From Succinivibrio sp. (GTDB lineage Bacteria; Pseudomonadota; Gammaproteobacteria; Enterobacterales; Succinivibrionaceae): a stretch of 13,002 nucleotides of DNA. The stretch lies in NCBI GenBank assembly GCA_017959135.1, contig JAGDBH010000120.1, positions 1 to 13,002 of the forward strand, read 5' to 3'. Positions 1 through 13,002 of the stretch are shown in pieces. A program made the position numbers and the translations under genes. A model generated the notes under the pieces. It searched no databases. It saw only the letters and a list, made by a program, of their open reading frames with translations, and was not told where the DNA came from. The stretch's first letter is position 1, and each line of letters begins with the position of its first letter.

Positions 1-505
1 CACCGATGATAGCAGTAGAACATGACATCGACAGAAAGATGGCTTTTGGATGGTATCTGTCATAAGTTTCCTGAACTGTTTTGCGTAACTTTTCACTTGC
101 TCCAAAAACCATATCGTTTTCCATAAGGTTTGTGGTAACGATGTTGATATTACGTGGTTCAAGATTTCGTCTTGCCAGTCCGTTACGCATGGCAAGATTA
201 AATTCAGGATTTCTGGCGGTACAGCCGACAGGACTATGCTGAATCAGTACACAGTCTCTAAGATTTCCCGCCTGACATGAGGCAATTGAATTTGCACACA
301 TACTCTGCTGGTTGAAAGGCATCTCAAGCTCGCAGAGTCGGCAGCCATTTTTTTTGCCGCAGTCAAATTCTCTTTTGATAAGGCTTCGACCTTCATAATT
401 GGATTGCATCACCAGATCAGAGGCAGTACCTGTCCAGGAGGTAATGGAGCCTAATCTCATTTCTCGATTTTCAACGGTATCGAGTGCTAAATTAATCTGT
501 TTCAT
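1..505 (-). CDS. Nitrogenase component 1-like protein (NifD/NifE/MarD-type), partial
   Basis: The first 168 residues are visible; the rest runs off the left edge. Sequence shows HSPVGC (Cys95), a preceding Cys70 in SMCANS, NLMENDMVFGASEKLR near residue 130 and SMSCSTAIIG (Cys162). The 70/95/162 spacing matches the P-cluster cysteines of NifD (62/88/154) closely, and the ENDMVFGA segment matches the xEKDxVFGG element of component-1 proteins. By family, such proteins form the catalytic alpha or beta subunit, or a scaffold subunit, of a nitrogenase-like reductase that needs a NifH-type partner. Unusual are extra cysteines 49, 55 and 58 near the N terminus, plus 77 and 85. It starts 6 bp after the permease stop, with GGAAAGAG upstream, so it is the fourth gene of the importer operon. 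Whether it is NifD, NifE, NifK, MarD or another group IV protein cannot be settled without the cofactor-ligand region. Confidence 0.85.
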   Translation of the reverse strand, partial: MKQINLALDTVENREMRLGSITSWTGTASDLVMQSNYEGRSLIKREFDCGKKNGCRLCELEMPFNQQSMCANSIASCQAGNLRDCVLIQHSPVGCTARNPEFNLAMRNGLARRNLEPRNINIVTTNLMENDMVFGASEKLRKTVQETYDRYHPKAIFLSMSCSTAIIG

Positions 506-511
506 CGGTAT

Positions 512-1435
512 CTACTCTTTCCATCTGAAAAAACGGTTTTCTACCTTGCGTAGAAGATAGGTAACAGTACTTACTACAACTCCTAAAACCACCAGACCAA
601 CCATGATTCTGGTAAAGTTACCAAAACGTGCGTAGTACTGAATATAAAAGCCAAGACCGCTTCCTCCTCCAATCATCTCTGCAGAGGTGAGCATGATAAA
701 GGACAGAGAAATCGCGATGTTGCATCCTGAAAAGACCTGAGGGAGAGAGGCCGGTAAAATGATTTTGAAGAGGATCTGAGCTTTTTTAAGATTCAGAACC
801 TTTGCTGAATTTATTATTTTGGAATCAACATTCAGAACACCATTCATTGTAGAGGTCAGAATAGGCCAGAATGAGGTTATAAAAATAATAAAGATCGAAC
901 ATGCCTTGAATGAAGGCAGCAGAGCAAGGGTGTAAGGGATAAAAACTACTGGAGGAATTGATCCCAGAAAGCTTGCTACGCTTGAGAAGGCTCTGCCTGT
1001 TCTTGCATTAAATGCAAGAAACAGTCCCAGTGGAATTGCTGTAACAAGAGCCAGTGCGAAACCGACAACAATTATGGATAGAGAACAGCCTATATCCACA
1101 ATCAGACGGAGATAGTCTCCTAAAAACTGCTTTACGATTACACCAGGGGCCTTAAAGATATCCTCAGGAAGAATATTCAGCTTAGCGGTTAACATAAGCC
1201 AGACAAAAAGAGAAATACTGATAATCGCAAAGGTATCTCTTATCAGAGTTCTCTGTTCATCTTTTCTTGCGAGAAATAAAACAATGAAAAATGAAACCTC
1301 CAGCAGCAGAATGAATCCTAATGCATAATCATTCTGTGCGGAGCGCTTTAAGTGATCCTCAAGTCCGAATGCACTTAGAACAAAGAGGATCACAAATAGG
1401 TTGTTTAGATTAAAAACAGCTGATTTTAAATTCAT
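512..1435 (-). CDS. ABC transporter permease, SsuC/TauC/NrtB type
   Basis: Integral membrane subunit of an importer, 307 residues. The sequence has hydrophobic segments near residues 12-24, 40-55 and 70-88, then a binding-protein-dependent permease core (about 110-295) with segments near 115-142, 155-173, 178-200, 238-255 and 277-294. The cytoplasmic EAA-type loop is at about 209-230 (SAKVLNLKKAQ...ILPASLP), where the permease meets the ATPase, and is followed by AEMIGGGSGLGFYI, typical of the sulfonate/taurine/nitrate family. The N-terminal extension with extra helices is longer than in a minimal SsuC. It lies 5 bp after the binding-protein gene with no clear ribosome binding site, suggesting translational coupling, and 6 bp before the nitrogenase-like gene. 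Substrate cannot be read from the permease. Confidence 0.9.
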   Translation of the reverse strand: MNLKSAVFNLNNLFVILFVLSAFGLEDHLKRSAQNDYALGFILLLEVSFFIVLFLARKDEQRTLIRDTFAIISISLFVWLMLTAKLNILPEDIFKAPGVIVKQFLGDYLRLIVDIGCSLSIIVVGFALALVTAIPLGLFLAFNARTGRAFSSVASFLGSIPPVVFIPYTLALLPSFKACSIFIIFITSFWPILTSTMNGVLNVDSKIINSAKVLNLKKAQILFKIILPASLPQVFSGCNIAISLSFIMLTSAEMIGGGSGLGFYIQYYARFGNFTRIMVGLVVLGVVVSTVTYLLRKVENRFFRWKE

Positions 1436-1440
1436 AATTT

Positions 1441-2532
1441 TTAGTTAGCGCGTTGATGGTACTGATACAGTTCTTTATAAACAGCATCATTGGCGTTTTC
1501 TTTAACAAGTTCATTTAGTGCCTGCTCATATAGAGCTGCAGTGTAGTTTGGCTTGATATCAAATTCCTTAACAAAACCAAGGTCAACAAGACTGTCATAG
1601 AAAACGTCCATGCGCTTCAGATCTGGATCTGGATTGGCAATTTCGTTGTCGTACTTGTAGGTGTCAGCAAGCAGCAGGTCTTCATCAACGTCTACATACT
1701 TGGCTATGTCCTTAATAGACTGACTTTCGTTGGTTTTATAGAATTTGTAGGCTTTGATTAGAGCTCTGATAAAGTGTTTGTATGTTTCAGGCTCAGCCTT
1801 TAGCTTATCTGTAAGAATTGCCTGACGACAGCAGACATGATTGTCAAATCCTTCAACATCACCGCTGTTTGCAAGAATTGTATAGCCTTCGTTTTCAGCC
1901 AGAATTCTGTAAGGTGCATAAAGCACTGCAGCGTCGATTTCGTCATTTTTAAGTGAGGCATATACATCTGAACCGTCGTTGAACATTACGAATTCTGTAT
2001 CTTTATCCAGACCGAGTTTTTTCAGAGCCTCTCTGATTACAATGTGTCCAGAACCAATGCCTTCCACACCAATCTTCTTTCCTGCCAGTAGTTTGATAGA
2101 CCATTCTGACTTAGGAATTCCTTTTACAATTCTGTCCTTTACAATAATTCCATGACCGGTTTTCATTGCTCCTGCGAACAGAGAAATCTTGTGACCTTCA
2201 GACATATAGCTTACAAGTTCACTTGAACCGTAGGCTCCAACATCAATTTTTCCTGACTCCATTGCAGCCAGTTCGCTGTTGTTTTCATTAAACAGAACCA
2301 GCTCTGCATTAATACCTTCCTCTTCAAAATAGCCTTCTTCCTTAGCCAGAAAATACAGCAGATGTCCTGGGGATGGCAGGTAGCCTATTCTTACGGTAGT
2401 AAGTTCTGAAGACTGATTCTGATGCTCATGATGGGCGGCATGTTCATCGTTTTTTTTATCGTCTCCACAGCCTTGAACTGCGGACAGAAGAAATGCTAAA
2501 GATATAACCTTTAATGTGTTCTTGAATTTCAT
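1441..2532 (-). CDS. ABC transporter substrate-binding lipoprotein, NMT1/SsuA/NrtA-like
   Basis: Extracytoplasmic solute-binding protein of 363 residues. A short basic-hydrophobic signal ends in AVQGC, so Cys22 is the probable lipidation site and the protein would be tethered on the periplasmic side of the inner membrane. A histidine-rich linker follows (His31, 34, 35 and 37 in DEHAAHHEHQN). The mature domain begins near residue 46 with VRIGYLPSPGHLLYFLAKEEGYF, shown here by its key elements GYLPSPGH and EEGYFEEEGI, the standard opening of NMT1/THI5-like binding proteins for sulfonates, taurine, nitrate or pyrimidine precursors. SGKIDVGAYGSSEL and KTGHGIIV are further family features. Vicinal cysteines 234-235 occur in NHVCCRQ. 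The gene has AAGGA upstream and sits 24 bp after the ATPase gene. Its operon with a nitrogenase-like gene suggests the ligand is the substrate, or a precursor, of that enzyme; this is inference. Confidence 0.88.
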   Translation of the reverse strand: MKFKNTLKVISLAFLLSAVQGCGDDKKNDEHAAHHEHQNQSSELTTVRIGYLPSPGHLLYFLAKEEGYFEEEGINAELVLFNENNSELAAMESGKIDVGAYGSSELVSYMSEGHKISLFAGAMKTGHGIIVKDRIVKGIPKSEWSIKLLAGKKIGVEGIGSGHIVIREALKKLGLDKDTEFVMFNDGSDVYASLKNDEIDAAVLYAPYRILAENEGYTILANSGDVEGFDNHVCCRQAILTDKLKAEPETYKHFIRALIKAYKFYKTNESQSIKDIAKYVDVDEDLLLADTYKYDNEIANPDPDLKRMDVFYDSLVDLGFVKEFDIKPNYTAALYEQALNELVKENANDAVYKELYQYHQRAN

Positions 2533-2556
2533 TTTTTTTCCTTATTTTGCTAAAAA

Positions 2557-3363
2557 TCATCCGGCCAGGGCGAATTCAAACTCAGGTTCACGAACGTTTC
2601 CATACAGCGAGTCAATGAGCTCTGCACGTAGTGTTTCGTAGTCCCTTGTTTTTCTGATATCTGTACGGTTTCTTGGTCTGTCAAATGGTACTTTTATCTC
2701 TTTATAGACATGTCCAGGATTTTCTGAGAAAACTACAATCTTGTGTGACAGAAGTATTGCTTCGTCAATATCGTGAGTAACAAAGATTACAGTTTTGTTT
2801 TTCCCTGAAGATGACCATAATTCCAGCACCAGATCCTGCAGAGAGCTTTTATTCTTTGCATCTAAAGCTCCAAAAGGTTCATCCATGATCAGAATATCTG
2901 TGTCCATGGCCAGTGCTCTTGCAATAGCTACTCGCTGCTGCATGCCACCTGAAAGCTGAGAAGGGAATTTGTTTTTGAACTGCTCGAGATGAACAAGGTC
3001 CAGAAAATGGTTGGCAAGCTTGGTAACTTCTTTTTTGCTAAGCTGTTTTTTAGCCTGCTGAATTCCAAATTCTGTATTCTTTAATGCGGTCATCCAGTGA
3101 AAAAGAGAATAATGCTGGAATACCACACCTCTGTCTGTACCGGTTCCTTTTACTTCTTTTCCATCGATTAGGATTCTGCCGGAGGTTGGCTTTAGAAGTC
3201 CTTCCAGAACACTCAGAAATGTACTTTTACCGCAGCCTGATGCTCCGACAATACTTACGAATTCACCTGACTTTACAGAAAAAGACAGATCTTTGAGAGC
3301 TTCAAAGGTCTGATTTGGTGTTTTGTATTTAACACATAAATTTTCAACATCTATTTTATTCAT
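2557..3363 (-). CDS. ABC transporter ATPase, SsuB/TauB/NrtD type
   Basis: Cytoplasmic ATPase that powers the importer, 268 residues, the usual length for SsuB/TauB proteins. All motifs are intact: Walker A GASGCGKST (40-48), Q-loop Gln83 in VVFQHYSLF, signature LSGGMQQR (137-144), Walker B ILIMDE (157-162), D-loop GALD (165-168) and switch His197 in VTHD. The FQHYSLFHW and MDEPFGALDA wording is characteristic of the nitrate/sulfonate/taurine subfamily. It is the first gene of the minus-strand operon and is preceded by GGGAG at good spacing from the ATG. The 267 bp upstream of it, before the end of the BOF gene, must hold the operon promoter. Confidence 0.93.
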   Translation of the reverse strand: MNKIDVENLCVKYKTPNQTFEALKDLSFSVKSGEFVSIVGASGCGKSTFLSVLEGLLKPTSGRILIDGKEVKGTGTDRGVVFQHYSLFHWMTALKNTEFGIQQAKKQLSKKEVTKLANHFLDLVHLEQFKNKFPSQLSGGMQQRVAIARALAMDTDILIMDEPFGALDAKNKSSLQDLVLELWSSSGKNKTVIFVTHDIDEAILLSHKIVVFSENPGHVYKEIKVPFDRPRNRTDIRKTRDYETLRAELIDSLYGNVREPEFEFALAG

Positions 3364-3448: not shown

Positions 3449-3569
3449 TGATCTATGTGTAACTATTTTATTAGACACATTTTTTTCTGGCTAATACTGT
3501 TTTTTTATTGAGTTATATAGATTTTTTGAATAACTGCCAGGAAAGAAATGTATGGATGATTTTTGGAAG

Positions 3570-4207: not shown

Positions 4208-5077
4208 ATGAATAGATATCTGGCATTACATAAAATCATTGAACTTGGTAATTTTACCAAGGCAGCTTCTGCCATGAACTGTACACAGTCTGCAATTAGT
4301 CAGATGATTTCCTCTCTGGAAGATGAACTTAAGATAAAGCTGCTTAACAGATCTAAATCAGGAATTTCTCTTACAAAAGAGGGCGAGAAATTATACCCCC
4401 ATATACAGCGTCTTGTATACGAATATAGAACAGTAAAAGAACATGCACAGGAAATAAGAGGTCTGGAAACAGGAACAATCAGAATAGGAACTATGGGAAG
4501 TATTTCCACTCACTGGCTGCCGATTCTAATCAGTGAATTTAAAAAGAAATACCCTGCAATTGAATTTGTTCTGCTCGAAGGAGACTATGTTTCCATTACA
4601 GAGTGGATTAAAACAGGAGCTGTCGATTTTGGATTTGTAAACCCGGATGCTGTTAGCGGTATCAAGACCTCACCTGTAAAGGACGGTCGTATGCTGGCAG
4701 TTCTTCCTCCAGGTCATCCTCTTGCAAAATGTGACGTTGTTTCTCTTAAGGATTTAGGACGAGAACACTTTATTCTTCTTGAGGAGGGAAATCATTCAGA
4801 ACCTCTTATCGCCTTCAAGGAACAGGGGATTCATCCTAAAATAAGTTACGTTATTCATGATGACTACACCATTATGAATATGGTTGAAGCAGGCTTAGGT
4901 GTAAGTATGCTTGCAGAACTTATGCTCAAGAGAATTGCATACAATCTCGAACTTAGACCAACTGATCCTCCTGTAATCAGAAAAATGGCCATAGGTTATA
5001 AGGACAGACTGTCACTTACCATCGCAGCAAGAAGATTTATTGAACTTTTAAAAGAAAATATGGACAAATTACCATAG
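4208..5077 (+). CDS. LysR-family transcriptional regulator
   Basis: Cytoplasmic DNA-binding regulator of 289 residues from the ATG at 4208, the usual LysR length. A start at 4133 was rejected because its first 25 residues are not LysR-like and it lies inside the inverted repeat. The winged helix-turn-helix is at residues 1-60 (LHKIIELGNFTKAASAM, TQSAISQMISSLEDEL, LLNRSKSGISLTKEGEKL). A linker helix and an effector-binding domain of the periplasmic-binding fold follow (from about residue 89, GTIRIGTMGSIS; later AVLPPGHPLA and VEAGLGVSMLAELML). The ribosome binding site is weak. It faces away from the BOF gene and is the nearest regulator to the importer/nitrogenase-like operon. By family it would sense a small metabolite; a sulfur or nitrogen compound is an attractive guess given the neighbours. 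Confidence 0.9.
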   Translation: MNRYLALHKIIELGNFTKAASAMNCTQSAISQMISSLEDELKIKLLNRSKSGISLTKEGEKLYPHIQRLVYEYRTVKEHAQEIRGLETGTIRIGTMGSISTHWLPILISEFKKKYPAIEFVLLEGDYVSITEWIKTGAVDFGFVNPDAVSGIKTSPVKDGRMLAVLPPGHPLAKCDVVSLKDLGREHFILLEEGNHSEPLIAFKEQGIHPKISYVIHDDYTIMNMVEAGLGVSMLAELMLKRIAYNLELRPTDPPVIRKMAIGYKDRLSLTIAARRFIELLKENMDKLP

Positions 5078-9217: not shown

Positions 9218-10873
9218 TTAATCTGCAATTAGAGCTGTAATTTCCTCAAGATCCGGTGAACCGGTATATCTTCTGATAACCTTTCCTTCTTCATCTAAAA
9301 CCAGAAGAAATGGTACTCCAATTATATTGAAGTTCTTTGTCAGTTCCTTGTTTGCTTCAGTGTCAGGATCTGTTATATCAAAACGAATTCTGTTCATGTC
9401 TTTTGTAAGATCTAAAAATTCATCACTTGCATAAATAGTCCTATCAAGCTCATGACAGTTTGCACACCACTCTGCGGAGAATGTAACCAGAGTTTTCTTT
9501 CCGTTGTACTTGTTTAAATCAGCAATCTTATGGACGAGTGTGAAGTTTCTGTTGGTAACATGGGAAGTACCTGTATAAACTGCGGTATAAATTGCCCAGA
9601 AACATAAGAATGCTGCCATCAAGATATAGGATACCTTCTTGCTTCTGAACAGCACTCCTATAAAGTAGGCTCCACAGCTTGCGTAAACTGCAGGCTCAAT
9701 GTATCTGTTAAGATCTCCGAAAAGATGCTGACAGATATAGTAGGCTCCTAAAAATAGAGGAATTGCGAACAGTCTTCTGATTTGCTCGGTGTGATTTTTT
9801 AGTTTTGAAATATATTTTGAGCCGAAAAAGCCGATTACAAGCAGAGGAAGTCCCATTCCCAGACCAATGAACAGGAACATCAGAACTCCCTTTAGAATTG
9901 AATTGGAAGTAATGATGTAAACCAGAGCGCCTGCAAGTGGTGCACTGGTACAAGGTGTAGTAATCAGCGCTGACAGTGCGCCAAATATAAAAGCCTTGGC
10001 AATGGTTCCATCTTTCTGTCTGTTAATTGCAATCTGAAGTGAGTTGTTAAATAAAAGTGGTACCTTCAGATTGATAAAACCTGCACAGTCTAATGTGAAG
10101 ATAAGCAGAATTGAACTGAGAATAATGATTGAAACCGGATGCTGCAGTATTCCGTGAGCAGACACACCTATCTCGGCAAATACCAGTCCTAGCACACAGT
10201 AGGTTAGGGCAAGACCCAGAATGTAGCTGATATTCTGTTTTATCTTGTTTGCTGCTGATACGTATTTAGTGCCCATGATAGTTGCAGAGTAGATTGAGAG
10301 CAGAGGCAGTACGCATGGGGTCAGATCAAGTGCAACACCAAAGCACAGACACAAAAGCAGAATAATCAGAAAATTATCGTAACCGCTGAAGATTCCTTTT
10401 TCCTGATTTAGGTTTGAAGAAGGCAGCTTCTCGATATTTCCTTTGATGTCTTTTTCAAGGAAGATATCCTGTGTCTGGGTAGGATAGCAGATTCCCTGAC
10501 TGTCACAGCCTCTGTATCTGAATTGTATTGGGCTCCCTGCTTTTCCCTCAATCACCTGTGCGTTAAGTGAAACAGAATCCATATACACTTCATTTGTTCC
10601 GCTTGCATCTTCATGCATGATGCCATCAGGCAGCTTGTCAGAACTTATAAGAACATCATCAGCCTCAAATCCTATTGAATCCTTGTATATATATGATCCG
10701 TTTTTTATGAGGATGTTACATTTGATTAAATCATTGTTCAGCGAGCATTCTGCTGAGAATGGAAGGCCTTCCTGAGCTGTTGCCCCAAGAGCATACAGTT
10801 TGTCGAGGTTAATATCGGCAAACGAACTTAGTGAATAGAAAAAAGTAAGCAGTGTAATTAGAATTCTGAACAT
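9218..10873 (-). CDS. dsbD: Thiol:disulfide interchange protein DsbD
   Basis: Inner-membrane reductant conveyor that passes electrons from cytoplasmic thioredoxin to periplasmic disulfide proteins and cytochrome c maturation. At 551 residues it is close to E. coli DsbD (565). A signal peptide ends at SSFA (residue 19). The N-terminal domain carries YRGCDSQGICYP with the redox pair Cys123/Cys129. The membrane domain (about 165-435, roughly eight segments) has DLTPCVLP (Cys187) and TTPCTSAP (Cys308). The C-terminal thioredoxin-like domain has EWCANCHEL (Cys470/Cys473) and cis-Pro GVPFLLV (Pro521). All six functional cysteines are present, and Cys43 and Cys52 are extra. AAGGA lies ahead of the ATG. 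It appears monocistronic and divergent from the small membrane protein gene. Confidence 0.96.
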   Translation of the reverse strand: MFRILITLLTFFYSLSSFADINLDKLYALGATAQEGLPFSAECSLNNDLIKCNILIKNGSYIYKDSIGFEADDVLISSDKLPDGIMHEDASGTNEVYMDSVSLNAQVIEGKAGSPIQFRYRGCDSQGICYPTQTQDIFLEKDIKGNIEKLPSSNLNQEKGIFSGYDNFLIILLLCLCFGVALDLTPCVLPLLSIYSATIMGTKYVSAANKIKQNISYILGLALTYCVLGLVFAEIGVSAHGILQHPVSIIILSSILLIFTLDCAGFINLKVPLLFNNSLQIAINRQKDGTIAKAFIFGALSALITTPCTSAPLAGALVYIITSNSILKGVLMFLFIGLGMGLPLLVIGFFGSKYISKLKNHTEQIRRLFAIPLFLGAYYICQHLFGDLNRYIEPAVYASCGAYFIGVLFRSKKVSYILMAAFLCFWAIYTAVYTGTSHVTNRNFTLVHKIADLNKYNGKKTLVTFSAEWCANCHELDRTIYASDEFLDLTKDMNRIRFDITDPDTEANKELTKNFNIIGVPFLLVLDEEGKVIRRYTGSPDLEEITALIAD

Positions 10874-10890
10874 ATATCTTTCCTTGTATT

Positions 10891-10923
10891 AACTGAATCA
10901 TATCAAAATTTGAGTATTCAGTT
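10891..10923. promoter_or_regulatory. Nested inverted repeat between dsbD and the small membrane protein gene
   Basis: AACTGAAT (10891-10898) is perfectly inverted as ATTCAGTT (10916-10923). Inside it TCAAA-A-TTTGA (10903-10913) is a second perfect dyad, with almost the same centre. It lies 17 bp from the dsbD start codon within the 133-bp divergent gap, so it falls in the dsbD leader or promoter. It could be an operator or an RNA hairpin. Confidence 0.4.
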
Positions 10924-11006
10924 TCGTTAATTTAATGAGAAAAAATCAGAATTCCGCAAACGTCAACTAAACTTAAGGTATGAAGTGTATGTGAGTAGTA
11001 CGAATT

Positions 11007-11264
11007 ATGAATATTATAAAGGCATGCTGGCTTTTTATTAAAAGCTACTTTTCAAAGTTGTATGCGGTCTATTTTATAAGATGGCAGATTTCTACTGTTG
11101 TCATGATGCCGTTTATGTACGTCCTGGATAAACTTGGTCTTACTGTTATTCCAAATCTGATTATCGCTCAGACTATAGGTTCAATTATATTCTTCAGACT
11201 GGATAAACTGATCTTTAATTTCTTTGACAGGCTTCATCATAGAAAAAACAAGAGTGAATCGTAA
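11007..11264 (+). CDS. Small two-helix membrane protein, unknown function
   Basis: 85 residues with an amphipathic, basic-aromatic N-terminus (MNIIKACWLFIKSYFSKLY), then hydrophobic segments near 27-46 and 47-68, and a basic tail (DRLHHRKNKSES). Features RWQIST, PNLIIAQTIGSIIFFRLDKLIF suggest a genuine small inner-membrane protein with conserved Asp and Arg at helix ends; I recall similar small proteins in anaerobes but cannot name a function. The ribosome binding site is weak. It is divergent from dsbD and stands alone, with over 500 bp to the next longer gene. Confidence 0.6.
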   Translation: MNIIKACWLFIKSYFSKLYAVYFIRWQISTVVMMPFMYVLDKLGLTVIPNLIIAQTIGSIIFFRLDKLIFNFFDRLHHRKNKSES

Positions 11265-11494
11265 AAGTCAGTAACGAAATCTGTAATTCTCTGAATACTT
11301 CCTCGCCTTTGAAAATTGTAAAAAACTCGTCGCTTAAGACGATTTCTATCGCTCTTTTTGTATATATATTATTTCGATATAGATTTTTTCCTTTCATAAC
11401 AAAAACATATAACTGCATATAAAAAAATAGAATTGGCATTATTTAGAAAATATTCAGATAATAGGTTATACAAAAAAAGTGTTGCTTTAATAAA
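11265..11494. other. AT-rich gap; weak terminator candidate near 11327-11359
   Basis: No gene supported. TCGTC (11327-11331) pairs with GACGA (11338-11342) around GCTTAA, and CTCTTTTT follows about 10 nt later; this may end transcription of the small membrane protein gene, but the stem is short. The rest is AT-rich with several TATA-like strings and no clear promoter. Confidence 0.35.
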
Positions 11495-11517
11495 TAATTA
11501 GAAAGAAATTCTAATTA
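11495..11517. promoter_or_regulatory. 23-bp palindrome TAATTAGAA-N5-TTCTAATTA, probable operator
   Basis: Perfect 9-bp arms with a 5-bp spacer (AGAAA) lie 33 bp upstream of the short Cys-rich reading frame that precedes the NifX/NifB-like genes. A TTGCTT at 11482-11487 just upstream might serve as a -35 element, in which case the palindrome would cover the core promoter. The strength of the symmetry and its position in an otherwise gene-free region make it the best operator candidate for the right-hand cluster. The binding protein is unknown. Confidence 0.5.
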
Positions 11518-11550
11518 AAAATAGTAGTACCTAGAGAAGAGTATAAAAAC

Positions 11551-11691
11551 ATGCAAAAGTTCATTCAGTTATTTAACGGAATATCAGGCCGATCCCAGGC
11601 TGATTTATTCTTCCTGTCAGATGTAAATTCACTTCTTTTCTCTCATTTTGAAATGTGTAGATGCACTTGCATGTGTAAATGCAAGTGTTAG
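11551..11691 (+). CDS. 46-residue reading frame ending in alternating cysteines; leader peptide or Cys-rich peptide
   Basis: ATG at 11551 with GAGAAGAG about 8 nt upstream opens 46 codons that end CRCTCMCKCKC and a TAG, giving cysteines at 36, 38, 40, 42, 44 and 46, the last residue of the peptide. The preceding 35 residues are hydrophobic and uncharged-rich (FIQLFNGIS, DLFFLSDVNSLLF) with no cysteine. It lies 92 nt before the NifX-like gene, on the same strand and with no terminator seen between. Two roles are plausible: a cysteine-sensing leader peptide whose translation controls the genes behind it (polycysteine short frames are known to do this in mycobacteria), or a metal-binding or modified peptide with a leader and a Cys core. 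The repeated codons also lie in a perfect hairpin, so a non-coding origin of the pattern remains possible. Confidence 0.5.
   Translation: MQKFIQLFNGISGRSQADLFFLSDVNSLLFSHFEMCRCTCMCKCKC
11664..11687 (+). promoter_or_regulatory. Perfect 9-bp hairpin within the polycysteine codons
   Basis: CACTTGCAT (11664-11672) is exactly inverted as ATGCAAGTG (11679-11687) around GTGTAA. It covers the last cysteine codons of the short reading frame and ends just before its TAG. No T-run follows, so it is not an intrinsic terminator by itself. A ribosome on the Cys codons would prevent it from forming, which is the geometry of translation-coupled attenuation. Confidence 0.5.
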
Positions 11692-11696
11692 TCAAT

Positions 11697-11770
11697 AAAG
11701 CTTAATCACCTAGCTTTCAAAATAATTCTACTTTAAATCGTTTTTACATGTTAGTTCAGCTCAGGCTGGA
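11697..11770 (+). promoter_or_regulatory. Leader hairpins before the NifX-like gene
   Basis: Two further stems lie between the short frame and the NifX-like start: AAAGCT (11697-11702) with AGCTTT (11712-11717), and TTCAGC (11755-11760) with GCTGGA (11765-11770) around TCAG. The second abuts the strong ribosome binding site AGGGGG (11772-11777) and could influence its access. A TTTTT at 11741-11745 follows the first stem, but too far away for a good terminator. Confidence 0.3.
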
Positions 11771-11783
11771 CAGGGGGAATTTT

Positions 11784-12635
11784 ATGTCCTTTAAAATTGC
11801 AGTTGCAACTTCAGATGGAGTCAATATTGATACCGAATATTCAAAGGCTCCAAAGTTTTTAATTATCAATGTAGATGATGAAGGTAACTATCATAATGAA
11901 GGATATCTTCATAATTACAGCATAAGTGTCAATGGCTGTGGTTCCTGCGAAAGCTGCAAAAGTGGCTGTCAGGCTAATGAAGCTGAGTTCCTCTGGGAGT
12001 GCAGCTATGTTCTTGCAACCTCATTTTCACACCGTATTACAAAGCTCTTAAACCGTATCTATATTGATACTTTAGAGGTTAGGCTGACTATAGCTGAAGC
12101 TGTTCCAAAGGTTATTGCCTTTGAGAACCGCAGATCAAATTTTGGAAAAAATCTGAAGACTTCGGTATGGGTTCCTCCAAGAAACATAACTCATGACTAT
12201 GTTCCACAGGATGATTATTCAGCTGATGCTTCTGAGGAGCAGGTTGAGAATGCATCTCAGGCAGATCTGAATCTGAATTCAGAGCGAATCGGTAAAAACC
12301 GTGTTGCTTTTGCCAGTTCTGACGGCAAGGTAGTGAATAGACATTTTGGTCATGCCGATCCTTTCTATATATATGAACTTCATGACAATTTAGCTTATTT
12401 TGTCGAAAAACGTTCAGTTAACAGCTGCTGCAATGGTGGCGGACATACAATCGACTCATTTAACGCGGTTGCCTCTACTATAGCTGACTGTCGTGCAGTG
12501 GTTGTAGCAAAAATTGGTCAGGGCGCATCTTCATTCCTTGAAAACAAAGGCTTTGAAGTATTTGAAGCTCCATACCTTATCAGCAGAGTTCTGGACAAGA
12601 TCATCAAAGACAGATTACTGGAGTCTGCAGCATGA
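11784..12635 (+). CDS. Tandem NifX / NifB-C-terminal-like (dinitrogenase cofactor biosynthesis) protein
   Basis: The ATG at 11784 was chosen over 11748 because AGGGGG lies 6 nt upstream and the family sequence begins at once (FKIAVATSDGVNID). The 283 residues hold two related domains. Domain 1 (about 3-115) has TSDGVNIDTEYS and an unusual cluster Cys52, 55, 58 and 62 (CGSCESCKSGC). After an acidic linker (about 138-170), domain 2 (about 172-280) has RVAFASSDGKVVNRHFGHAD, then SCCNGGG and DCRAVVVAKIGQGAS, close to the NifX-like domain found at the C terminus of many NifB proteins. This family binds or carries iron-sulfur cofactor precursors such as NifB-co. It overlaps the NifB-like gene by ATGA, so the two are translationally coupled. 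Domain 1 lacks the HFG motif and may have a different metal role. Confidence 0.85.
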   Translation: MSFKIAVATSDGVNIDTEYSKAPKFLIINVDDEGNYHNEGYLHNYSISVNGCGSCESCKSGCQANEAEFLWECSYVLATSFSHRITKLLNRIYIDTLEVRLTIAEAVPKVIAFENRRSNFGKNLKTSVWVPPRNITHDYVPQDDYSADASEEQVENASQADLNLNSERIGKNRVAFASSDGKVVNRHFGHADPFYIYELHDNLAYFVEKRSVNSCCNGGGHTIDSFNAVASTIADCRAVVVAKIGQGASSFLENKGFEVFEAPYLISRVLDKIIKDRLLESAA

Positions 12636-13002
12636 CCGCTAATTATCAGGAACTCTGTCTTAAACATCCATGCTACGCAAGAGGAAATAAATCAAAGGCA
12701 GGAAGAATTCACCTGCCAGTTAGTCCGGGCTGCAACATTGGCTGCCGATTCTGCGATCGAAAGTTCAATAATTTTGAGAAAAGACCTGGAGTCTGCAGTT
12801 CGATTTTAAAACCAGCTCAGGCTGTTGAAGTTGTCAGAAAGTCACTTGAACTCTGTGAAGATATTTCAGTTGTAGGTATTGCAGGCCCTGGTGACACTCT
12901 GGCTACACCATATGCTCTTGAGACCTTCAGACTTATAAGAAAGGAATTTCCAAAGCTTTTTCTTTGCATGAGTACCAATGGACTTCTTTTAGAGGAGAAA
13001 GC
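12632..13002 (+). CDS. nifB: NifB-family radical SAM cofactor biosynthesis protein, partial
   Basis: The first 123 residues are visible; the gene continues past the right edge. It begins at the ATGA overlap with the NifX-like gene. Visible NifB features are LKHPCYARG (9-18), IHLPVSPGCNIGCRFCDRKF with the radical SAM cluster cysteines 34, 38 and 41 (CxxxCxxC), KRPGVCSSIL, VVGIAGPGDTLATP and FLCMSTNGLLL. The HPCY, RPGV and AGPGD elements together distinguish NifB-type from other radical SAM proteins. NifB fuses two [4Fe-4S] units and inserts carbide to make NifB-co, the precursor of nitrogenase-type cofactors. Here the NifX-like domain usually fused behind NifB is encoded separately upstream. 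It could serve a nitrogenase or a nitrogenase-like enzyme such as methylthio-alkane reductase (MarB). Confidence 0.88.
   Translation, partial: MTANYQELCLKHPCYARGNKSKAGRIHLPVSPGCNIGCRFCDRKFNNFEKRPGVCSSILKPAQAVEVVRKSLELCEDISVVGIAGPGDTLATPYALETFRLIRKEFPKLFLCMSTNGLLLEEK

Follow-up and report, generated by a model that had tools for sequence, protein, structure and literature searches.

A candidate cysteine- and methionine-sensing leader peptide upstream of a methylthio-alkane reductase-type operon in Succinivibrio

Leader frame and genes of the locus

The analysed stretch of DNA, in the following referred to as the window, comprises 13,002 nucleotides from Succinivibrio sp. and corresponds to contig C84 of a genome of 1.79 Mb, which is distributed over 381 contigs and 87% complete. 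In its last part a short frame is located upstream of nitrogenase-like genes, with the following features:

11533 to 11539, + strand: AGAGAAG, probable ribosome binding site of the leader frame, 11 nt 5' of its ATG
11551 to 11691, + strand: candidate leader peptide gene of 46 codons plus stop, MQKFIQLFNGISGRSQADLFFLSDVNSLLFSHFEMCRCTCMCKCKC*, with ATG start, from the list of open reading frames
11653 to 11688, + strand: putative control-codon block M-C-R-C-T-C-M-C-K-C-K-C with six Cys and two Met codons, flush with the stop
11784 to 12635, + strand: first operon gene, NifX/NifB-C-terminal-like (Nitro_FeMo-Co domain)
12632 to 13002, + strand: NifB-like radical SAM gene, running off the contig

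The encoded peptide ends with MCRCTCMCKCKC*, which confirms the 46-codon frame with six alternating cysteines at its end that had been described in the sequence-only reading. The ribosome binding site regarded there as plausible is likewise present, and its counterpart in S. dextrinosolvens reads AGAAAAG. Frames with at least six Cys within the last 12 codons occurred once in the window and not at all in 400 Markov shuffles of it. In the whole genome, the DNA pattern for C-x-C-x-C-x-C gave 31 matches compared to two for the pattern read backwards. Among the 30 pattern matches with loci, the leader frame is the only one that both opens with a start codon and runs up to the stop with its Cys tail, and the remaining matches were rejected as chance. 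Across the Cys codons a short stem can be drawn, in which 11664-11671 pairs with 11680-11687.

Based on the comparison with two relatives, the nifX-like gene most likely starts at the ATG at 11784, preceded by AGGGGGA at 11772-11778. The frame is thus indeed situated ahead of NifX/NifB-type genes as claimed before, and a gap of 92 nt separates it from this likely start.

Assignment of the downstream operon

In S. dextrinosolvens, the gene order is leader, nifX-like, nifB-like, D, K, H and a NifS-like gene. In the genome of the window, the D, K, H and NifS-like genes were found on contig C323 and are tied to the operon of the window by the synteny with S. dextrinosolvens only. The H protein passed its NCBIfam cut-off, and the nifB and nifX matches of the first operon gene stayed below theirs. 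The D protein of the genome of the window matched PDB entry 9fmg with an E-value of 2.2e-192; for the D protein of S. dextrinosolvens, the next PDB sequences were true nitrogenases with E-values of 2.4e-37 or weaker. According to the accessible part of PMC12552129, 9FMG is the MarDKH complex of methylthio-alkane reductase (MAR), and Arg428-His429 is a possible hallmark of it. This pair is retained in the alignment of the D protein (position counted by hand).

Judged by these protein comparisons, the operon behind the leader matches MAR, a sulfur-salvage enzyme. N2 fixation as function of the operon was rejected, because the D protein matches MAR. The earlier link to the sulfur supply of iron-sulfur clusters did not hold either, the probable target being instead a sulfur-scavenging MAR operon. 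For Rhodospirillum rubrum, the accessible text of PMC12552129 places MAR in an anaerobic methionine-salvage route used without sulfate.

The window contains a further operon of this type:

2 to 3363, − strand: second nitrogenase-like operon, of MarD-like type and including an NMT1-type ABC transporter; S. dextrinosolvens has it as well (L046)

A Cys/Met leader was looked for on this second operon and rejected, as none was found. No leader of the Cys/Met kind was seen in the relatives located on plasmids of Treponema saccharophilum and Chlorohelix. On plasmid pTS2 of T. saccharophilum (L052), a rumen spirochaete, two nitrogenase-component-1 pairs, NifX-like genes and an ABC transporter are present in an arrangement that resembles the second operon of the window. 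MarD was detected in one of 369 genomes in an even sample of the class and in one of 398 in an even sample of the phylum, the genome of the window being the sole match in each.

A comparison of 9218-11550 with L032 and L046 showed that the locus has been rearranged: the neighbour of the first MAR operon is a DsbD-like gene in the window, and in S. dextrinosolvens the surroundings of this operon are different, with a distance of about 33 kb to the second MAR operon.

Conservation of the leader in relatives

Relatives of the nifX-like gene were found in S. dextrinosolvens DSM 3072 (82% identity; L032 = G030:C22) and in the uncultured hRUG862 (49-55%; L033), and it is absent from the remaining genomes of the 56 family genomes. 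Altogether, the analysis yielded just three MAR operons of this kind, of which only two have the leader peptide in common.

The leader of S. dextrinosolvens likewise comprises exactly 46 amino acids, ends with MCRCSCMCKCKC* and matches the peptide of the window with an E-value of 7.8e-11. On the DNA level, the identity of the two leaders amounts to 96% in codons 1-8, 42-54% in codons 9-32 and 83-95% at the end. The last 13 codons including the stop showed two synonymous changes (one Cys, TGT/TGC, and the stop, TAG/TAA) and one Thr/Ser exchange, and the other 34 codons showed three synonymous and 20 non-synonymous ones. Start, frame and the Cys/Met-rich end are thus kept and the middle is free, which is the pattern to be expected if the control codons alone matter.

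At the equivalent position of hRUG862, a different Cys/Met-rich frame was found, MQIKNYKRTDSKGEILNPHIDPFTLQATPMCMTAVCMTAVHMTANCMSSMHMTSKCSCSHN*, which partly consists of a 15-nt repeat, contains five Cys and seven internal Met within its last 32 residues and stops 138 nt before the gene. The cluster of control codons is accordingly kept across species, in two of them with the peptide of the window and in one with a different peptide. Weak matches of the leader protein in 17 further family genomes were rejected as chance (E-value of 0.048 or worse). The search proposed in the sequence-only reading, namely for the frame upstream of nifX/nifB homologues of related genomes, therefore returned the frame itself in S. 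dextrinosolvens and a different Cys/Met-rich one in hRUG862.

The same comparison bears on the question whether a peptide or an RNA stem is conserved. In S. dextrinosolvens, the change of 11666 from C to G breaks one pair of the stem, and every Cys codon is retained. Retained Cys codons with synonymous variation had been proposed before as the mark of a peptide, and this is what was found. A chance open frame, in which just a DNA or RNA element at about 11656-11697 is conserved, would agree with the conservation of this stretch as DNA, with the weak stem overlapping it and with the lack of amino acid constraint in the middle of the frame. It would not explain why the Cys codons stay when a stem pair is broken, why a third species with another sequence again has a Cys/Met-rich frame, or why unrelated leaders occur at other sulfur genes. 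Since the shuffles also yielded no comparable frame, we regard this explanation as very unlikely.

Further Cys/Met leaders in the family

Leaders rich in Cys and Met were also found at other genes of the family. In G030, the leader MKNIKRYYKTDYSVLISENNKSEYHSNQFSTLSMCCSCHMCCSPMSM precedes metQ-like and msrA genes, and its relatives in G031, G032 and G045 end with MCTC(R/H)SCTLMCM (4 of 4 loci at 90% identity or more). In the same four genomes, a leader MSAVVS...CCSRM is located before an FAD oxidoreductase gene and a second metQ-like gene; in G000, just 76 nt of the contig are available upstream of the corresponding FAD-metQ locus. The Cys positions of these FAD leaders are not fixed, and their pairwise changes comprise three synonymous and seven non-synonymous ones.

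Other leaders precede metQ or metN. In the genome of the window itself, the leader MKKNLLYLQKEAIFLSDRRITLNKYSDSTSDCMCMCM lies before a metQ/nlpA-like gene (L244), and in G042 a leader with MMCMCAMCMC precedes metQ (L243). The same holds true for Met/Cys leaders before metQ or metN in G012, G020, G034 and G043, the examples from G043 being MSHLEVLMCMFSMCCVMCMMCSVMASAYIQKS with AAAGGAGG. The MetQ-like proteins match the MetQ/NlpA models below the curated cut-offs, and their substrate is therefore inferred. A looser scan of 30 metQ loci gave some frame with at least five Cys plus Met at 14 of them, of which five with end-clustered residues were kept (L079-L082, L087) and the rest treated as chance. 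Canonical metNIQ operons of the family are mostly without such leaders. In 20 further metNIQ loci two matches were obtained, none of them convincing, since L239 looks like chance and L241 repeats L106.

These additional leaders are informative for two other explanations of the peptide. Runs of CxC, Met and some His are typical ligands of soft metals, and the peptide could bind Cu(I), Zn or Fe via its CxC and Met residues and act as a chaperone or as a metal-responsive upstream frame. Sequences such as CMC, SCHMCC and HMTSKCSC in the leaders, as well as the metallocluster built by the downstream genes, are in line with this function. However, apart from their position and their richness in Cys and Met, the leaders have little in common, some of them stand in front of metQ, msrA and FAD oxidoreductase genes, and metal binding leaves both the terminators of six relatives (see below) and the link to sulfur amino acid genes unexplained. 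It is therefore considered quite unlikely. A short Cys-rich peptide with a radical SAM gene nearby could also suggest a RiPP precursor that would be modified by the NifB-like radical SAM protein. Against this, the radical SAM gene is NifB-like and belongs to the MAR operon, and the other leaders precede transport genes at loci where no such enzyme was seen, which makes this origin scarcely conceivable.

Promoter motif and its link to the leaders

Upstream of the leader frame, the following elements were found:

11419 to 11437, + strand: promoter motif ATAAAAANAYAGWATTRGC, common to the second MAR-like operon and other sulfur genes
3490 to 3508, − strand: second copy of the promoter motif, before the ABC-transporter/MarD-like operon (3363 to 2), an operon without Cys/Met leader
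11433 to 11462, + strand: promoter-like site TTGGCA-18-GATAAT, a consensus match only, kept in S. dextrinosolvens
11496 to 11516, + strand: inverted repeat AATTAGAA-AGAAA-TTCTAATT within the 5' leader, unchanged in S. dextrinosolvens

The promoter-like site has to be read against the number of such sites in the region, of which five were found and 4.9 are expected from shuffles. The promoter motif was derived from an alignment of the two promoter regions belonging to the first and the second MAR-like operon. Allowing up to one mismatch, it was found at nine sites in three genomes (backward-read control: 0) and at 22 sites in 19 genomes of the genus (control: 0), and with up to two mismatches at 23 sites in the three genomes compared to five in the control. 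Via new sites of the motif, the leaders of the metQ-msrA and FAD-metQ genes and those before metQ in L244 and L243 were detected.

For the link between motif and leaders, a leader was defined as a frame of 12-90 amino acids with at least two Cys and at least five Cys plus Met in the last 16 residues. In 1.6 Mb of G031, such frames were found in 3 of 801 upstream regions, two of them being the metQ and FAD leaders, and Markov shuffles of these regions gave 1.7 frames on average; the background frequency in most genomes is what chance gives. In 450-nt stretches of the genome of the window, coding regions included, 3 of 282 contained such a frame. Within the 450 nt following intergenic motif sites, a leader was present in 7 of 13 cases (G000, G030, G042), compared to 0 of 10 for motif sites inside long frames. 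Leaving out the five sites that define the motif, the amount was 4 of 8 compared to 3 of 801 (Fisher p 1.4e-7), where the background stems from one relative and orthologous leaders are not independent.

Leaderless sites of the motif were also observed, namely before an O-acetylhomoserine sulfhydrylase and a methionine-synthase-like gene (both above the cut-off; L246 = G000:C229, L112, L114), and furthermore before genes for a polar amino acid binding protein, a 2-oxoacid oxidoreductase-like protein (named from sequence) and a porin-looking protein. The first two suggest that the motif may belong to a wider sulfur regulon. A candidate reader of the motif is encoded near the second MAR-like operon by a LysR-type regulator gene (4208-5077, + strand); among the matches listed, none of the best NCBIfam matches of this protein reaches its cut-off, including those to GltC and to a CysB-family model.

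Inverted repeats with an AGAAA loop precede two unrelated leaders, those of the first MAR operon (TTAGAA-AGAAA-TTCTAA) and of the FAD genes. Upstream of the FAD leaders (L120, L202, L206, L207), the repeat reads CAGGA-AGAAA-TCCTG in three of four cases and is changed in the fourth.

Terminators and spacers

Intrinsic terminators with stems of 8-11 pairs, a T run and energies of -9.3 to -25.1 kcal/mol were found 17-34 nt past the stop of six Met/Cys leaders of metQ or metN genes, including the one of G042. In a scan over all stem lengths, six of the seven further Met/Cys leaders have a terminator in the spacer, L087 being the exception, compared to 32 of 680 background regions. L106, a locus outside the terminator scan, has no countable terminator.

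In all six cases, the 5' arm of the terminator finds its best partner at -26 to +1 relative to the stop codon, in the part of the leader frame that separates the control codons from the stop. In this classical placement, a ribosome at the stop would cover the antiterminator stretch, and a ribosome stalled on the Met/Cys codons would leave it free. The antiterminator pairing was better than 95% of the shuffles in three of the six leaders (12, 39 and 1 of 1000 shuffles as good), and for the other three 222, 175 and 365 of 1000 were as good. In the fold of G042 at equilibrium, the terminator wins at every position of the ribosome, and the switch would therefore need to occur during transcription.

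This complete arrangement was found in relatives only. No intrinsic terminator was detected in the leader of the window and its ten relatives of the MAR, metQ-msrA and FAD groups (0 of 11), and searches of the window and the ten leader loci against Rfam gave no match at the gathering score and hence no known riboswitch or T-box. In these three groups, the control codons either adjoin the stop or lie up to three codons away from it, and the spacers measure 71-138 nt. For the window, the following features are relevant:

11692 to 11783, + strand: spacer between leader and gene, with 13 C and 6 G in the first 70 nt and no intrinsic terminator
11754 to 11771, + strand: predicted hairpin GUUCAGC-UCAG-GCUGGAC just 5' of the ribosome binding site of the nifX-like gene, which folds in S. 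dextrinosolvens as well, with a U-A pair exchanged to A-U

In the first 70 nt of the spacer, C exceeds G in all 11 leaders of the three groups. The bias stands out for the metQ-msrA group only, for which 0.4-5.7% of the background regions are as biased; the corresponding values are 8.0% for the first MAR operon of the window, 23.9% for that of S. dextrinosolvens, 35.0% for that of hRUG862 and 15.7-44.7% for the FAD leaders. Furthermore, two of the four metQ-msrA spacers show no predicted fold in their first 45 nt. The excess of C and the unfolded state of these metQ-msrA spacers fit the loading of Rho.

The leader could also sense sulfur amino acids and act on the translational start of the nifX-like gene instead of on termination, either via the hairpin at 11754-11771 or via the Shine-Dalgarno sequence, which pairs with codons 2-3 in the window and in S. 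dextrinosolvens. The hairpin folding in both species with its one pair exchange, the second pairing in both species and the spacer without terminator would be explained by this. On the other hand, the modelled exposure of the Shine-Dalgarno sequence is nearly independent of the ribosome position, with no clear trend in the window and no dependence in S. dextrinosolvens, and the excess of C in 11 of 11 spacers (not significant for the MAR leaders) together with the two unstructured metQ-msrA spacers would rather be expected for Rho loading. We therefore treat translational control as a tentative second option that falls somewhat short of being probable.

Proposed regulation of the operon

Taking the findings together, we consider it highly probable that the frame is a translated leader peptide sensing the supply of cysteine, and probably of methionine as well. 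With ample charged tRNA, the ribosome would pass the Cys and Met codons and leave at the stop, and the operon would stay low. If charged tRNA-Cys or tRNA-Met became short, the ribosome would stall at the terminal control-codon block, and the expression of the MAR operon would rise, by which sulfur could be freed from methylthio compounds. For the downstream step in the window, where a terminator is missing, Rho-dependent termination gated by the stalled ribosome would be a first guess and translational control a second.

The cysteine-sensing attenuator put forward in the sequence-only reading is accordingly the best-supported option, because the Cys tail is retained in spite of a drifting middle part, and because Cys/Met leaders precede other sulfur genes, six of them with terminators. 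It requires three amendments, as the leaders apparently count Met in addition to Cys, the target is a MAR-type, sulfur-scavenging operon, and the leader of the window lacks the terminator of an attenuator in the strict sense and does not strictly keep its stem. Whether all these leaders form a single Cys plus Met leader-peptide regulon of Succinivibrio and its relatives, with one motif, a joint readout of the charging of tRNA-Cys and tRNA-Met and two builds, of which one has an intrinsic terminator and the other, the MAR build with its control codons next to the stop, would let the stalled ribosome shield the spacer from Rho, is in our estimation evenly balanced.

MAR is an enzyme of the nitrogenase family that releases methanethiol and small hydrocarbons, and a Cys/Met leader would provide it with a simple control. 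If such a regulon exists, cysteine and methionine would control an enzyme of this family directly by way of translation.

Comparison with known systems

Classical attenuators of the trp/his type comprise control codons, an antiterminator stretch, a stop and a terminator in this order. The same layout is seen in the six terminator-bearing Met/Cys leaders of metQ or metN. Unlike in the classical attenuators, the amino acids are Met and Cys, and the leader of the window has no terminator.

For polycysteine leaders of Actinobacteria, a leaderless start is named in the title of Canestrari et al. 2020. The leader of the window may differ in this respect, as an SD-like site (11533-11539) and, further upstream, a promoter-like site (11433-11462) are predicted for it. 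The work is cited in the accessible parts of PMC9094748 and PMC13236596. For cysteine leaders of Actinobacteria without a conserved terminator, Rho was proposed by Seliverstov et al. 2005 (PMC1262725, as far as accessible). Like these, the leaders described here are short frames with Cys codons near the stop, located upstream of sulfur genes. The differences are the occurrence in Gammaproteobacteria, the alternating C-x-C mixed with Met, the nitrogenase-like enzyme and Met uptake as targets, and the intrinsic terminators in some of the relatives.

A further comparison is possible with the uORFC-8-2 motif before cysS, for which the accessible part of PMC8632094 describes two tandem Cys codons, a proposed ribosome-mediated attenuation and a terminator. 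An upstream frame with Cys codons is common to both, and the terminator is found again in the six terminator-bearing leaders. In contrast, the target of uORFC-8-2 is cysS and its Cys codons are tandem, and no Rfam family matches the leader loci investigated here.

Compared to marBHDK of R. rubrum, as presented in the accessible text of PMC12552129, the match of the D protein with its Arg-His pair and the grouping of B-, D-, K- and H-type genes into a single operon are shared. The gene order X-B-D-K-H and the leader peptide set the operon described here apart, and the word 'leader' does not occur in that 2025 structure paper, whose accessible portion does not deal with the control of the enzyme. 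In the open literature, to which subscription papers mostly do not belong, no Met or Cys plus Met leader of this kind was found.

Cysteine leaders as such are already known, and the mixed Cys plus Met set and the MAR target appear to be new within this literature. Compared to the known systems, the set offers a mixed Cys plus Met leader type, two builds within one family and a promoter motif as a bioinformatic handle.
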